A DNA stretch of 38,850 bases from Saprospiraceae bacterium (lineage in GTDB: Bacteria > Bacteroidota > Bacteroidia > Chitinophagales > Saprospiraceae). The notes beneath the pieces are model-generated. The model had not been told where the DNA came from. It made no database searches and worked only from the letters and a program-made list of their open reading frames with translations. The stretch is taken from assembly GCA_020628085.1 (NCBI GenBank), contig JAHDFQ010000006.1, forward strand, positions 5,375 to 44,224, given 5' to 3'. Numbering within the stretch: the stretch's first letter is position 1; each line of letters begins with the position of its first letter. Shown one piece after another: positions 2,872 to 23,840 of this stretch. Position numbers and translations under genes: made by a program.

Positions 2872-5800
2872 ATGCTTAAATTTATACCAACGTTGTTTGG
2901 TATTGTGTCTTTAGTATTGCTTTGCTGTATGCCAGTAACCAATATTACTGCTCAAACCACTGTTACCATAGGAACAGGTACTTCTAGTAATTATTTTTAT
3001 GGTCCAATTTATCGTTCTTCAGCAAGTTCTAGTTTTGATTATTCCAGATATCATCATATTTTCACAGCTACTGAACTTCAAGCTGCAGGAATTGTCCCTG
3101 GCTCTACTATTTCAGATATTGCTTGGAATAGAATGTCTGATTTTGTACTTACAGGCGGAGATGCCACTTTAAAAATTTATGTTAAAAATTCTTCTGCAAC
3201 GGTTGCTGTAAACGATACTTGGGCTAACCTTATTGCAGGTTCTACCCTTGTAATAGATGATATCTTAAATACGACTAATAACTTACCTGCTACCACAGGT
3301 TATTGGACTCTTAATTTCTCTAGCCCTTTTGTATATGGAGGAGGCTCTCTTGAAATAAGTGTCGATTGGGATTGCTCTGCAATAACAGGAAGTCCAACTA
3401 CTGGTGATTTTGACTGGGAATATGGCGATGTAGGAGCTACATTAACTGCTTATAACAATGATAGTTCTCAACCCACAAGTACGGATACAGAAAGTTCTAA
3501 TAGACCTAACACACAGTTTACTTTTACGGCTCCAGCTTGTCCAGGGCCTACAGGTTTAGCTGTAACAAATATCACAGGTACTACAGCTGATTTAAGTTGG
3601 AATACTGCCTCAGGAGCTACTACTTATAATTGGATCGTTGTTCCTGCTGGTGCAGGGTCTGGAGCAACACCTATTGCCAATGGTTCGACTAGTTCAACTT
3701 CAGATGTAGCTACTGGGCTTAGTGTAACAACTCCTTATGATTTGTATGTTCAATCAGATTGTGGTGGAGGTACACTTAGTCTATTCTCTGGACCATTTTC
3801 TTTTATCACTGGTTGTTCTAGCGCACTTTCAGGTACTTATACCATTGGTGGTGCTAGCCCTGATTACGCCACATTCGGAGATGCTGTTACGGAATTGGTA
3901 CTTTGTGGTATTAGTAGTGCCGTAACATTTGATGTTGCTGCTGGCACTTACACAGAAACAATTAATATCCCAGAAATTGTGGGTTCAAGTGCTACAAATA
4001 CTATAACCTTCGATGGTGCAGGTGCAGCTAATCTTGACTATTTAACAGGGAGTACCCAAAACGCTATCGTTTTACTAGAGGGTGCAGACTATATTACGTT
4101 TAAAAATCTAACGTTTAACCACAGTAATACTACGGATGCGTGGGGCTTCAGGATAGTCAATGAATCGGATTATGTTACTATTGAAAACAATACTTTCAAC
4201 ATGGGTACTGGTACTTCTGATGTATGTGCCATTTTAGCTTCAGGTTCAGCTACCTCTATGTTTACAGAAGGAATGCATTGTAACTTTCTAACGATAGTCG
4301 GTAATACTATCAATGATGGTACAGACGGTGTTCACCTCGAAGGAGCTACTTCTTCTGTCGCTGATTGGATCAACACTGTGGTGGTTGCTGAGAATACGAT
4401 GAATGATATTCATGGAGCAGGTCTTTATATGGATCAAATAGATAACTTAACTGTAGAAAGAAATACCATTAATGCTGATGGAGATACCTCTGCAGATGGT
4501 TTGTCCACTTTTGATATTATAAATTTTAATTTTAGCTATAACTACATTACAGCGACAGATGACGGTATCTATATTTCAGATGGAAACTTTGATGACACTC
4601 CAGTAGGTAACTCTTCGGTTTTTAATAATATGATTTACAGTTCATCAGGTAGTGCTTTATATTTCTTAGATGTGGATCTGACCAATATTTATTTCAATAC
4701 ATTAGTTACAACTTCTACCAGCACAAGTGACTATGCTTTCTATACCGCAGATGATTTGACTGTTGATTTTAGAAATAATATTTGTTTTGCAGATGCAGGA
4801 GAAGCTTTTTACTCAACAGTTGACTTAACCAATTATACCATTGACCACAATATTTATTATGGTACTGGAACAGTTTTGATAGATGCAGGAACCAATGCAC
4901 ACGCAACACTTGCCGATTGGCAAACAGACCAGCCTACTTATAATGTCAATTCATTAGAAGGTGATCCCGGATTTACGGGTATTCCTAATCTATTCCTTAT
5001 TGGAACACTGGCAGATGGTGCTGCTACACCAATTGGCACAATAGAAGATGATATTGAAGGAGATGATAGAGATGGTACAGCACCTGATATAGGTGCAGAT
5101 GAATATGATATACCTACTTGTTTTCCTCCTAATGCATTGACAGTTAGCAATATTACACCCACTTCAGCAGACTTAGGATGGACAGATACGAATTCTCCCG
5201 CAGCTACCTTATGGGATGTAGAAATTGTTCTTGCAGGTAATACTCCTACAGGCACTCCTACCGCTGCTGGTGTAAGTAATCCTTATTCAGCTACTGGCTT
5301 AACAGATAATACAAATTATGAATACTATGTGAGAGCAGATTGTGGTGGTTCTGGTATTAGTCCTTGGGCCGGGCCATTTGCTTTTGAAACGCCTTGTTTA
5401 CCACTTTCGGCACCTTATATAGAATCCTTTGATGCTACTTCAGCCCCAGCTTGCTGGACACAATCTGCAACATCAGGAGGTCCATGGGTATTTGGAACAC
5501 CTGGTTTTACTTGGAACACAACTGGATGTACTGCTAGTACTCCAGCAGATAATACTGGAAATGGCGGAAATTATGCCGCTTTGGATCTTTCTGGAAGTGG
5601 AGCAACTATTGATGTTGGAGTTATTCTTACAATGCCAATAATTGACGTGTCGTCATTAAGTGTACCTTATTTGGAATTCTACCATTACATGTGTGCAACC
5701 GGATATTCTCCATTAAACGAAACGTATATAGAAGCTTACGATGGAACAGCTTGGTCACAAGTGGGCTCAATCATTGCGGGTAGTGCTTCTTGGGAAGAAT

Positions 5801-10880: not shown

Positions 10881-11447
10881 CTACTCTTTATTCAAAAACT
10901 CATCCGTAAAATGTTCACGTCGTTTTTCTTGTGCAAACTTATCAGTATTATAAGCGATCGAACCACCACGAGGAATAGACAAACTTTGCCAATTATCACT
11001 AGCAATAATTCGAGCCAGAAACACCAGTTGTCCAACATGATAACTATAATGTGCTAACTGCCGATTGATTGCTTCTGTAATAGTATGCCCTTGATTTCGG
11101 ATATAAATGAGTTCTTCTAAATCATCGTCTTGAAGTGGTTTGAGTGCATCGAAAAGGCATTCCCAACCTGCTTCCCATTTATCAATCAACTCCGTTCTTG
11201 ATTTAATGTTATTATCAAACTCTGCTTCTCTCTGCCGCCATTCCTTTTCTCCATCTTCTGTTCTAAAATTTGTCCAGCGAGATAGCATATTGCCCCAAAG
11301 ATGTTTGACAATAGATGCCATGCTATTGCTTTCGGGAGTTATTTGCCAAAATAATTGTTCATCAGGTACTTGCGCTATCGCTTTTTCACCCAGTGATTTG
11401 TAGTATTCAAATTGTCGTTGAATGGAAGAAAGGTAGGAATGGGACAT
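10881..11447 (-). CDS. DUF1572 (DinB-like) family protein
   Basis: I take the start at 11447 (MSHSYLSSIQ) rather than the longer frame from 11543, because that upstream extension overlaps a hairpin region and has no family resemblance. The 188-residue protein is a four-helix DinB-superfamily member of the DUF1572 type. His49 (VKHLWGN), His133 and His137 (LAHYSYHVGQLV) fit the three-histidine metal site of the superfamily. The C-terminus has the RGGS segment typical of DUF1572. Some DinB-like proteins are thiol-dependent transferases; the reaction here is unknown. The gene is convergent with the ACT gene and downstream of the TlpA-like gene on the same strand. Confidence 0.85.
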   Translation of the reverse strand: MSHSYLSSIQRQFEYYKSLGEKAIAQVPDEQLFWQITPESNSMASIVKHLWGNMLSRWTNFRTEDGEKEWRQREAEFDNNIKSRTELIDKWEAGWECLFDALKPLQDDDLEELIYIRNQGHTITEAINRQLAHYSYHVGQLVFLARIIASDNWQSLSIPRGGSIAYNTDKFAQEKRREHFTDEFLNKE

Positions 11448-11602: not shown

Positions 11603-12103
11603 TTACTTCTCTGCTAGTTCTTTGATTTTATCTTCCAACTCGTACTCATCACCAGGTACATAGCCCGAATGTGAGTAAACAATCACACCATCTTGATCAA
11701 TCACAAATGTCTGTGGTACAGTTTGAAAGTTTAATGCCTTTTGTAATTCCTGATTGGCATCTGATAAAATCGTATATTCCCAACCTTTTGTATTCACCAT
11801 TCCTGGTACTTTTGCCAAAGCACGCTGCGTGTCAATCGTCACCGCCACCAACTCCATATCATACTCCTCTACCCAATCAGGATAAATATCTGCAATAGCG
11901 TCTAGCTCTTTTTTACAAGGAGAACACCAAGTCGCCCAAAAACTCAATACCGTTATTTTTCCATTGTTTGCAAAATCTTGAATATTTACGGTTTTACCAT
12001 CTAAAGTTTTTACAGGAATACTAGGAACATCACGCTGCGCAAAAAGAGTGGTGGAAAGTACTAAACCAGCCATCAAGGCAAAACATTTCAAAAGACTATT
12101 CAT
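11603..12103 (-). CDS. TlpA-type exported thioredoxin-like protein
   Basis: The 166-residue protein has a signal peptide (about 1-22, MNSLLKCFALMAGLVLSTTLFAQ) and one AhpC-TSA/redoxin fold. The active site is WATWCSPCKKE with Cys60 and Cys63; the cis-proline loop is TVPQTFVID. It should act in the periplasm as a thiol-disulfide oxidoreductase. It lies divergent from the DUF6029 and Omp28-like genes (429-base gap). Omp28-like proteins also carry a CXXC redox-type motif, so a shared role in folding or handling of exported proteins is plausible, but this is inference from neighbourhood. Confidence 0.9.
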   Translation of the reverse strand: MNSLLKCFALMAGLVLSTTLFAQRDVPSIPVKTLDGKTVNIQDFANNGKITVLSFWATWCSPCKKELDAIADIYPDWVEEYDMELVAVTIDTQRALAKVPGMVNTKGWEYTILSDANQELQKALNFQTVPQTFVIDQDGVIVYSHSGYVPGDEYELEDKIKELAEK

Positions 12104-18039: not shown

Positions 18040-18145
18040 ATTTCAACCTGTTTTATTCGTTTACAAATGCTTACAATTAATTACAAACGAAATTAAACGT
18101 TTATTTCCCGACTCTGGCTTGGAGTTGCCCGTAGTTTTGCATTGT

Positions 18146-18153
18146 CAAATTTA
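18146..18153 (-). promoter_or_regulatory. Possible -7 element of the DUF885 gene
   Basis: On the minus strand TAAATTTG matches the Bacteroidota TAnnTTTG core about 107 bases upstream of the DUF885 ATG. The expected -33 position falls within the repeat array starting at 18156, where no well-spaced TTG is seen, so this is weak. Confidence 0.3.
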
Positions 18154-18155
18154 TT

Positions 18156-18213
18156 AAGTGTTCACGTGTTATTGTGCTCAAGTGTTCACGTGCTTTTACA
18201 CTTACGTGTTATT
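18156..18213. repeat. Left repeat arm of the four-helix-bundle cassette
   Basis: AAGTGTTCACGTG occurs at 18156-18168 and again at 18180-18192 (24-base spacing), with ACGTGTTATT at 18164-18173 and 18204-18213 and GTGCTCA at 18174-18180. The stretch 18173-18193, reverse complemented, matches 20 of 21 bases with 23817-23837 and nearly matches the right arm at 18701-18720. Confidence 0.85.
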
Positions 18214-18238
18214 TTTTATCTGTAATTAAATTATTAAT

Positions 18239-18616
18239 GTGAAAATAAGAAAATTTGAAGACTTAGAATGTTGGAAAGCGGCACGTGTGTTGGCAACCAG
18301 TACATACAAGTATAGTAATTATGGTAAAATATCAAAAGACTTTGATCTTAGAAATCAACTGAGACGAGCAGCTATATCTGTAATGAATAATATAGCAGAA
18401 GGTTTTAGGCGATATTCTCGAAAAGAGTTTAAACGTTTTTTAGATATCGCCCAAAGCTCGGCAGCCGAAGTAAAAAGTATGCTCTATATCATCGAAGATA
18501 TTGGATATATGAATTCTAAAGAACTTCATCACTTACATATACAAGTTGATAGAGCAAGAGCATTGTGTCTTGGGATGATAAAATATGTTAGCAGAACAAT
18601 TAAAAATAAATTATAA
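18239..18616 (+). CDS. Four-helix-bundle protein (S23/23S-rRNA IVS-encoded, Avd-like family)
   Basis: This 125-residue protein matches the TIGR02436-type four-helix-bundle family: FEDLECWKAARVLA, FDLRNQLRRAAISVMNNIAEGF, RKEFKRFLDIAQSSAAEVKS and a last helix about 85-120. The start is GTG (18239); the ATG two bases earlier is followed at once by a stop in its own frame. Relatives are encoded in 23S rRNA intervening sequences and, as Avd, in diversity-generating retroelements, where they bind nucleic acid and partners. No reverse transcriptase, variable repeat or rRNA is present here. Inverted repeat arrays bracket the gene (18156-18213 and 18627-18741), like an IVS stem with the ORF in the loop. 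It is inserted between the divergent DUF885 and ssb genes. Function is unknown. Confidence 0.9.
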   Translation: MKIRKFEDLECWKAARVLATSTYKYSNYGKISKDFDLRNQLRRAAISVMNNIAEGFRRYSRKEFKRFLDIAQSSAAEVKSMLYIIEDIGYMNSKELHHLHIQVDRARALCLGMIKYVSRTIKNKL

Positions 18617-18626
18617 AATATCATGG

Positions 18627-18741
18627 TACGTGAACACTCGAATGAGTCAGTACATGAACACTTTAAAAAAATAAATAATAAATCGCTCATGTTTAGCAAA
18701 ACGTGAACACATGAGCACATTCTTAACATGAACACGATACG
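18627..18741. repeat. Right repeat arm of the four-helix-bundle cassette
   Basis: Four related units, inverted relative to the left arm, lie at 18627 (TACGTGAACACTC), 18651 (TACATGAACACTT), 18700 (AACGTGAACACAT) and 18725 (AACATGAACACGA). ACGTGAACACATGAGCACAT (18701-18720) is repeated exactly at 23819-23838. Confidence 0.85.
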
Positions 18742-18761
18742 TTCATAAAACTTTAAATACG

Positions 18762-19136
18762 ATGAATAATTTACGAAACAAAGTGCAGTTGATTGGAAAA
18801 TTGGGAATGAATCCTGAAATGAGAACTTTCAACAATGGTCAGAAACTAGCGAGAGTATCTATTGCAACAAAGGATATTTTTAAAAATGCTAAAGGTGAAA
18901 AAGTAGTGGAGACACAGTGGCATCGCTTAGTGGCTTGGGGAAAAACAGCGGAGAATATGGAAGTCTTTTTGAAAAAAGGAAACGAAATTGCTGTAATGGG
19001 TCGTTTACAACACCGAAGTTATGAGGATAAAATGGGTAACAAACGAAATATCACAGAAATATCTGTCAATGAATTCATGTTGCTTTCTAGTGCTGCAAAA
19101 CAAGATAAAAATGTGGAAGCATCAGTAGCAGCATAG
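18762..19136 (+). CDS. ssb: Single-stranded DNA-binding protein without an acidic C-terminal tip
   Basis: The 124-residue protein is an OB-fold SSB: MNNLRNKVQLIGKLGMNPEMR, TQWHRLVAWGKTAENMEVFLKKGNEIAVMGRL and an ITEISVNEFMLL final strand. It ends with NVEASVAA and lacks both the glycine-rich linker and the DDDLPF-like tip that ordinary replication SSBs use to bind partners. It is therefore likely an accessory SSB paralogue, or one with a different partner interface. The ATG follows the right repeat arm of the four-helix-bundle cassette by 20 bases, so its promoter may lie in or across that element. It is convergent with the M1 peptidase gene. Confidence 0.93.
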   Translation: MNNLRNKVQLIGKLGMNPEMRTFNNGQKLARVSIATKDIFKNAKGEKVVETQWHRLVAWGKTAENMEVFLKKGNEIAVMGRLQHRSYEDKMGNKRNITEISVNEFMLLSSAAKQDKNVEASVAA

Positions 19137-23688: not shown

Positions 23689-23840
23689 AACGTGTTCGTG
23701 TGTTAACGCCTGCCTGCCGCAGGCAAGTGTGCATGTGTTCACGTGCGATTATTTAGATATGATCTATTCAGGTATTTACGTTTTTTGCTTTCATGTACAT
23801 TCAATTTTGTACTTGAGCACGTGAACACATGAGCACATCA
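23689..23840. repeat. Gene-less inverted-repeat element related to the four-helix-bundle cassette
   Basis: ATGTGTTCACGTGC (23733-23746) is the perfect inverted copy of GCACGTGAACACAT (23817-23830), separated by 70 bases without an ORF. The right arm includes ACGTGAACACATGAGCACAT (23819-23838), identical to 18701-18720. The left arm also contains CGTGTTCGTGTGTTAACG (23691-23708) and the GC-rich 19-mer (23709-23727). The element fills almost the entire space between two minus-strand genes, and its right end overlaps the stop codon of the DUF5916 gene. Confidence 0.85.
23709..23727. repeat. GC-rich 19-mer repeat, copy 2 (near-perfect palindrome)
   Basis: CCTGCCTGCCGCAGGCAAG contains TGCCTGC and GCAGGCA around a single C. 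It matches 14336-14354 at 17 of 19 bases. The motif is nested in the inverted-repeat element 23689-23840. Confidence 0.8.

Follow-up and report, generated by a model that had tools for sequence, protein, structure and literature searches.

A probable intervening-sequence-like cassette outside rRNA: a four-helix-bundle gene between inverted tandem-repeat arms in a Saprospiraceae genome

The intervening sequences (IVSs) in the 23S rRNA of Coxiella and Leptospira carry an open reading frame (ORF) of the S23/four-helix-bundle (4HB) family in the loop of a stem that is made by terminal inverted repeats. In the Coxiella IVS, three tandem heptamers (GACAGAT) are located upstream of the ORF (PMC4990558), and an old proposal, as discussed in the same paper, holds that IVSs are mobile elements with the ORF serving their mobility. 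Genes of this family, 23S_rRNA_IVP, have also been found at several rRNA insertion sites in bacteria of the Candidate Phyla Radiation (PMC11270868), and have been listed among the genes of cas loci (PMC3936711). Short tandem arrays are known from a separate literature. Heptamer arrays were described with the units GGGAATC in Xanthomonas and GGGGA(T/C)T in Nostoc, with 70-75 heptamer pairs in convergent orientation in Xanthomonas (PMC4692102), and TAACTGA arrays were described in Beggiatoaceae, Cyanobacteria and Bacteroidetes, where horizontal spread was suspected and ‘no mechanism is evident’ (PMC4679880). The main text of neither of these two papers mentions S23/four-helix-bundle genes, and we found no paper in the open-access literature that joins this gene family to the arrays. 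Here we describe a 38,850-nt stretch of DNA from a Saprospiraceae bacterium (the window; positions 5375-44224 of contig C142, GenBank JAHDFQ010000006.1, of the genome designated G000), in which a 4HB gene at 18239-18616 is flanked by inverted tandem arrays, and we report that the same arrangement recurs in many phyla.

The element in the window, at 18154-18741, resembles the 23S rRNA IVSs in that an ORF of the same protein family is placed in the loop of a stem of terminal inverted repeats. It differs from them in that it is not located in rRNA, that its arms are tandem arrays of the 7-9 bp type and that it has dispersed relatives without the gene. Excision from the transcript by RNase III is a feature of the rRNA IVSs. 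The arms share with the heptamer arrays and the short tandemly repeated repetitive (STRR) sequences of cyanobacteria an intergenic position, short tandem units (7 bp there, 8 bp here) and, as in Xanthomonas, a convergent polarity. In the wider set described below, 81 of 88 arms had a period of 7 or 8, and the spread over Cyanobacteria and Bacteroidetes is comparable to that of the TAACTGA arrays. A third comparison concerns the repetitive extragenic palindromes (REPs), their paired form, the REPINs, and the REP-associated tyrosine transposases (RAYTs). In both cases one gene lies between inverted short repeats and many gene-less inverted pairs are present per genome. However, the cassette gene belongs to PF05635 and is not a Y1 transposase, the repeats are tandem arrays rather than single palindromes, and the unit differs per copy. 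Lastly, the Avd protein of diversity-generating retroelements has a homologous four-helix-bundle fold and works with a reverse transcriptase (PMC10053308). Unlike in these retroelements, no reverse transcriptase gene was found beside the cassette, the neighbours of which encode DUF885 and Ssb, and the sole RVT_1 match of the genome is on contig C134. The parts of the cassette are as follows.

18154-18210, plus strand: left (5') arm, an array of GTGTTCAC-type units (Tandem Repeats Finder period 24, i.e. 3 x 8)
18239-18616, plus strand: gene for the four-helix-bundle/S23/23S_rRNA_IVP protein, 125 aa, GTG start, net charge +12
18625-18676, minus strand: inner part of the right (3') arm, with inverted units at 18628 and 18652; partner of 18149-18194 in the best fold
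18698-18741, minus strand: outer part of the right (3') arm, with inverted units at 18701 and 18726

The gene belongs to the 23S_rRNA_IVP/four-helix-bundle family. In profile searches its product matched PF05635 (23S_rRNA_IVP) with 108.4 bits against a cut-off of 33.8 (E 2.7e-31) and TIGR02436 (four helix bundle protein) with 102 bits against a cut-off of 24 (E 1.9e-29). The sole solved relative that could be found by sequence is XCC0516 of Xanthomonas (2GSC; E 1.4e-13), which forms a pentameric ring (PMC4990558). The cassette is outside a 23S rRNA gene, no Rfam match was found within the window, and the 80 4HB loci of the wider sample were likewise free of rRNA matches. A preliminary description of this DNA had likewise proposed an IVS-like anatomy outside rRNA.

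The arms of the gene are inverted copies of a repeat with an 8-bp period, GTGTTCAC, although the tandem array of this particular cassette is degenerate. AAGTGTTCACGTG is found exactly at 18156 and 18180 in the left arm, and the inverted units of the right arm are located within 1-2 bases of where they had been placed before. The near reverse complementarity that had been noted between 18173-18193 and 18701-18720 could be confirmed: 17 of the 18 bases of TGTGCTCAAGTGTTCACG (18173-18190) are complementary to 18701-18718. The inverted-arm alignment score of the cassette was 47, as compared to a maximum of 30 among 50 shuffled sequences. The RNA of 18146-18760 (615 nt) had a predicted folding energy of -140.3 kcal/mol, which corresponds to a z-score of -4.09, and none of 20 shuffles was equal or better. 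In the best fold, 42 pairs join 18149-18194 to 18625-18676 and the ORF is in the loop. The proposal that the transcript folds with its arms joined around the ORF was thus borne out, but the assigned partner was not: in this fold the left arm takes the inner right-hand units as partners instead of 18701-18720. Since the arms are repetitive, several pairing registers are possible, with the outer units at 18698-18741 as alternatives.

Further evidence for our interpretation comes from other 4HB genes. The preliminary description had staked its case beforehand on the presence of arms around further copies of the family, and these were found at the majority of copies across phyla, with a unit sequence that varied by copy. 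Arms were scored by aligning the 250 nt upstream of a gene with the reverse complement of the 250 nt downstream, a score of at least 30 being taken as positive; this test overlooks arms that are long, degenerate or broken by the assembly, and relies on automatic start codons. Within the order, 53% of 72 distinct 4HB genes had arms, as compared to 2% of 151 other genes at the same loci (p = 3.6e-18). A wider set consisted of 80 loci from more than a dozen phyla that were the best matches to one subfamily profile, built from a narrower 4HB alignment. Here, arms were present at 50 of the 78 testable copies. The corresponding rate was 4.3% among 304 neighbouring genes, and 5.6% among the 124 neighbours that have an intergenic gap on either side (odds ratio of 30 and p = 9.7e-20 against the gap-flanked genes, values that are not corrected for kinship). 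Groups with armed copies included Acidobacteria (4 of 4), Planctomycetota (6 of 6), Bacteroidota and allies (18 of 26), Nitrospirae (3 of 4), Patescibacteria (3 of 5), Proteobacteria and Geobacter (4 of 6) and Cyanobacteria (2 of 2), and rates were lower in Chloroflexota, Omnitrophota, Verrucomicrobia and Firmicutes. Arms were also found at 10 of 14 plasmid-borne copies, which were on named and mostly cyanobacterial plasmids. On a Nostoc plasmid, a 4HB gene with GGGAGTA arrays on both sides is placed between nrdB and nrdA, the two genes for ribonucleotide reductase, and a plasmid of Nostoc sp. C052 has AGGGAAC arrays at its 4HB gene. On the cyanobacterial plasmids of loci L270 and L274, 4HB genes are located between cas6 and cas4 and between cas10 and cmr3, with strong arrays as arms at L270. 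The unit differs between genomes and also between copies of one genome: the copies in G003 have GGTTTCAG, units of the CGGGGAAAT/CGAGTATCT type and TTATATTG, and those in G026 have GGTTAGA, AGTTAGCA and GGTGGAT.

The arms share a common anatomy. Over 88 arms with a median length of 34 nt, the best period was 7 in 51, 8 in 30 and 9 in 5, and 48 of 50 5' arms were more periodic than their shuffles, with a median of about 4.4 units. They sit close to the ORF, with median gaps of 21 and 14 nt. G exceeded C in 79 of 84 5' arms; AGTT occurred in 30 of 88 5' arms as compared to 3 on the opposite strand, and GGTT in 23 as compared to 1. Ribosome binding sites could partly be behind the purine-rich 5' arm; the arrays reach far beyond the size of a ribosome binding site, and gene-less hairpins have the same polarity. 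In addition, the more alike two 4HB proteins were, the more alike were their arms (Spearman 0.15; Mantel test, 0 of 500 permutations). This correlation is weak but clear, and would fit either co-inheritance or co-evolution.

The same repeats are also dispersed without the gene. When one mismatch was allowed, AAGTGTTCACGTG had 37 matches in G000, as compared to 1 for the reversed control. These sites are mostly gene-less and intergenic, and typically consist of an GTGTTCAC-rich arm with an 8-bp period, a short loop and the inverse arm. The arms are not specific to the gene, in contrast to the earlier idea of a self-contained cassette, but form a dispersed family that is mostly found without it. 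One member is present in the window itself.

23689-23839, no strand assigned: gene-less hairpin of the GTGTTCAC family, with a forward unit at 23735 and an inverted unit at 23819, between an oxidoreductase-like gene and a gene for an 824-aa protein

This hairpin has a short loop and includes an inner GC-rich palindrome, gcctgcctgccgcaggc. The order was forward-then-inverted in all 19 clusters that contained both orientations (10 of 10 in G000, 7 of 7 in G001 and 2 of 2 of another family in G026). The GTGTTCAC family had 133 matches in G001 but about 1 in the congeneric G002, and was nearly absent from four other genera. Units derived from the arms of other 4HB genes were similarly dispersed, with genome-wide counts, the 4HB loci included, of 93 in G026, 39 in G003, 345 in G005 and 20 in G036 against reversed controls of 0; across G000, G001, G026, G003 and G005, reversed-control matches numbered 0-2. 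No convincing 4HB relic was found within the gene-less hairpins of G000. The density of arrays rose with the number of 4HB copies over 32 genomes (Spearman rho 0.57, p = 6e-4), a correlation that is supportive only, because the samples of 20-60 kb are small and the genomes related. As the strict array detector overlooks the degenerate GTGTTCAC arrays of G000, the correlation undercounts genomes of this kind. Furthermore, many contigs stop or hold N gaps at arrays (gaps at L005, L031 and L196; contig ends at L010, L014, L020 and L028), and the number of arrays is thus underestimated in draft genomes. The junction between cysD and cysN (L376-L388) looks like a repeated landing spot. In G000 and G001 the arrays at this site are GTGTTCAC hairpins; G002, G005 and G008 have arrays of other units there, and several further genomes have no array, which indicates that certain transcribed junctions repeatedly acquire arrays.

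The 4HB gene has a minus-strand DUF885 gene on one side and the plus-strand gene ssb on the other, and the cassette had been thought to split a divergent promoter region of these two genes. Comparison with relatives points to a different position, downstream of a promoter-like block that is conserved ahead of ssb.

18132-18139, plus strand: TAGTTTTG, a match to the Bacteroidota -7 promoter element TANNTTTG, inside the block at about 18063-18149 that is conserved upstream of ssb in G002
18762-19136, plus strand: ssb, single-strand DNA-binding protein (PF00436, E 2e-29), with the cassette in its leader

TANNTTTG is the consensus of the -7 promoter element in Bacteroidota. In G002, the sequence ahead of ssb includes a block that can be aligned with 18063-18149 (locus L193), in which TTTGCATTGTCAAA and the upstream motifs are kept, and related blocks with a similar ATCTTTGCAtcGTC precede other ssb homologues. 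From the end of the block to the start codon of ssb, the distance is 612 nt in G000 and 111 nt in its congener G002. This short leader in G002 and the long one in G000 after a conserved block suggest that the cassette was probably inserted into the 5' leader of ssb, just past the predicted transcription start and not in the promoter. Because of this position, it is probably transcribed together with ssb.

The gene and its inverted arrays thus recur as a unit across many phyla, the arrays have a consistent polarity, and gene-less pairs are dispersed in the genomes. With a probability of roughly 0.6, we regard 18154-18741 as an IVS-like cassette outside rRNA, with the gene-less hairpins as its relatives and with the 4HB protein aiding its spread. 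The unit would accordingly be mobile, and the gene-less hairpins would either have originated from it or make use of its protein, as putative non-autonomous relatives comparable to what REPINs are to RAYT transposases. In the mechanism that we envisage, the transcript would fold into a hairpin whose loop contains the ORF. The basic and presumably ring-shaped 4HB protein may then bind the G/T-rich tandem core (AGTT/GGTT-like), either in RNA or in single-stranded DNA, and may assist enzymes of the host in copying the hairpin or inserting it at transcribed intergenic sites, and trimming of the transcript by an RNase III-type activity would leave the host mRNA functional. The ring protein TRAP, which binds tandem RNA triplets, is an analogy only, and the same is true for REPIN/RAYT.

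Several observations weigh against this interpretation. By the 250-nt test, arms went undetected at 36-47% of the 4HB genes, two of the four copies in G000 among them; G034, G045, G054 and G006 do have 4HB genes, yet the tested copies are without arms and arrays are absent or rare in the samples of these genomes. Conversely, most arrays are without a 4HB gene. We observed neither a transposition event nor a target-site duplication or an excision product, and we know of no catalytic site in the 4HB family. At the ssb locus, the gene upstream of ssb in G002 is not DUF885 and G002, though of the same genus, is diverged, so that it does not provide a clean empty site. G001 does keep the order DUF885-ssb-M1 peptidase, but its assembly has an N gap exactly at the place of the cassette. 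The loci L004 and L102 (G001) encode the same type of 4HB protein (77% protein identity); no flanking homology was found between them, and the same site is therefore not established.

The main rival explanation is that the arrays are host intergenic hairpins of separate origin, for example through slippage or hairpin repair, and that 4HB genes land in them as target sites or tolerate them. This would account for the gene-less arrays far outnumbering the 4HB genes, and for cysD-cysN carrying differing arrays per genome, as if the spot attracts or grows arrays. It gains further weight from the fact that the armless 4HB copies are mainly found in the genomes with array-free samples (G034, G045, G054 and G006). 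It loses weight through several copies that do have arms (G008 L103, G055 L041, G057 L052 and L092, and G004 L079) although the 20-40 kb samples of their genomes, which are small, are array-free. In addition, a separate origin of the arrays does not readily explain why units differ among copies of one genome, why the arms sit tight on the ORF, and why 4HB copy number and array density climb together. We therefore consider this explanation unlikely, but still a serious competitor of the cassette interpretation.

It is also conceivable that nothing moves and that the arms serve the 4HB gene in cis, as binding sites or as stabilisers of its mRNA, for example in autoregulation, comparable with the ring protein TRAP on its tandem triplets. 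The median of about 4.4 tandem units, the pentameric ring of the solved relative (PMC4990558) and the hairpin in the transcript would suit such a role. However, this leaves unexplained the hundreds of dispersed gene-less copies as well as the presence of 4HB genes inside unrelated operons (nrdB/nrdA, cas10/cmr3 and cas6/cas4), and we give it little credence. Movement of the repeats by a Y1 (RAYT-type) transposase, as in REP/REPIN systems and with the 4HB gene as a passenger, appears very improbable. Y1_Tnp genes are present in 29 of 37 relatives, and inverted flanking palindromes were found at 6 of the 20 tested, but these palindromes are not tandem arrays, and arrays were beside only 1 of the 20. 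Moreover, the three weak Y1 matches of G000 are all on contigs without the GTGTTCAC motif, and a Y1/RAYT driver was rejected on these grounds. Chance or low-complexity similarity, to which short arms in A+T-rich DNA might be prone, is refuted by the shuffle and neighbour-gene controls.

The association of the 4HB gene with the arrays suggests that this gene and the short repeats scattered in bacterial genomes are parts of a single type of element that has been overlooked. The function of S23/23S_rRNA_IVP and the origin and spread of short heptamer arrays in Cyanobacteria, Xanthomonas, Beggiatoaceae and Bacteroidota may thus be one puzzle, for which the link between gene and array offers a candidate protein and a candidate recognition core. 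More tentatively, and with rather less than even confidence, we propose that 4HB genes and scattered 7-9 bp arrays, including STRR and the heptamers of Xanthomonas and Beggiatoaceae, form a single cross-phylum class of mobile elements, in which a ring protein would recognise its own tandem G/T-rich units, spread would proceed without a recognisable transposase, and the rRNA IVSs would be a special case. The 4HB genes between cas genes suggest that some of the ‘cas-associated’ 23S_rRNA_IVP copies may be operon inserts.

A few further observations were made on individual 4HB loci. Plasmids of three genera (L264, L265 and L269) carry a 4HB gene with a near-identical leader, ggagtcaggagtcagaataa or a close variant, which suggests a shared element. 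At L074 of G031, two 4HB genes at 10991-11375 and 11605-11989 are arranged in direct tandem and have identical profile scores, apparently as the result of a recent duplication. At 2646-3675 of L064 in G002, the 4HB domain is part of an open frame of 343 aa, possibly encoding a fusion protein. Lastly, in a KSB1 metagenome-assembled genome (L345), two Acido-Lenti-1 RNAs, at 3992-4037 and 4565-4610, are located within about 1.3 kb downstream of the 4HB gene.
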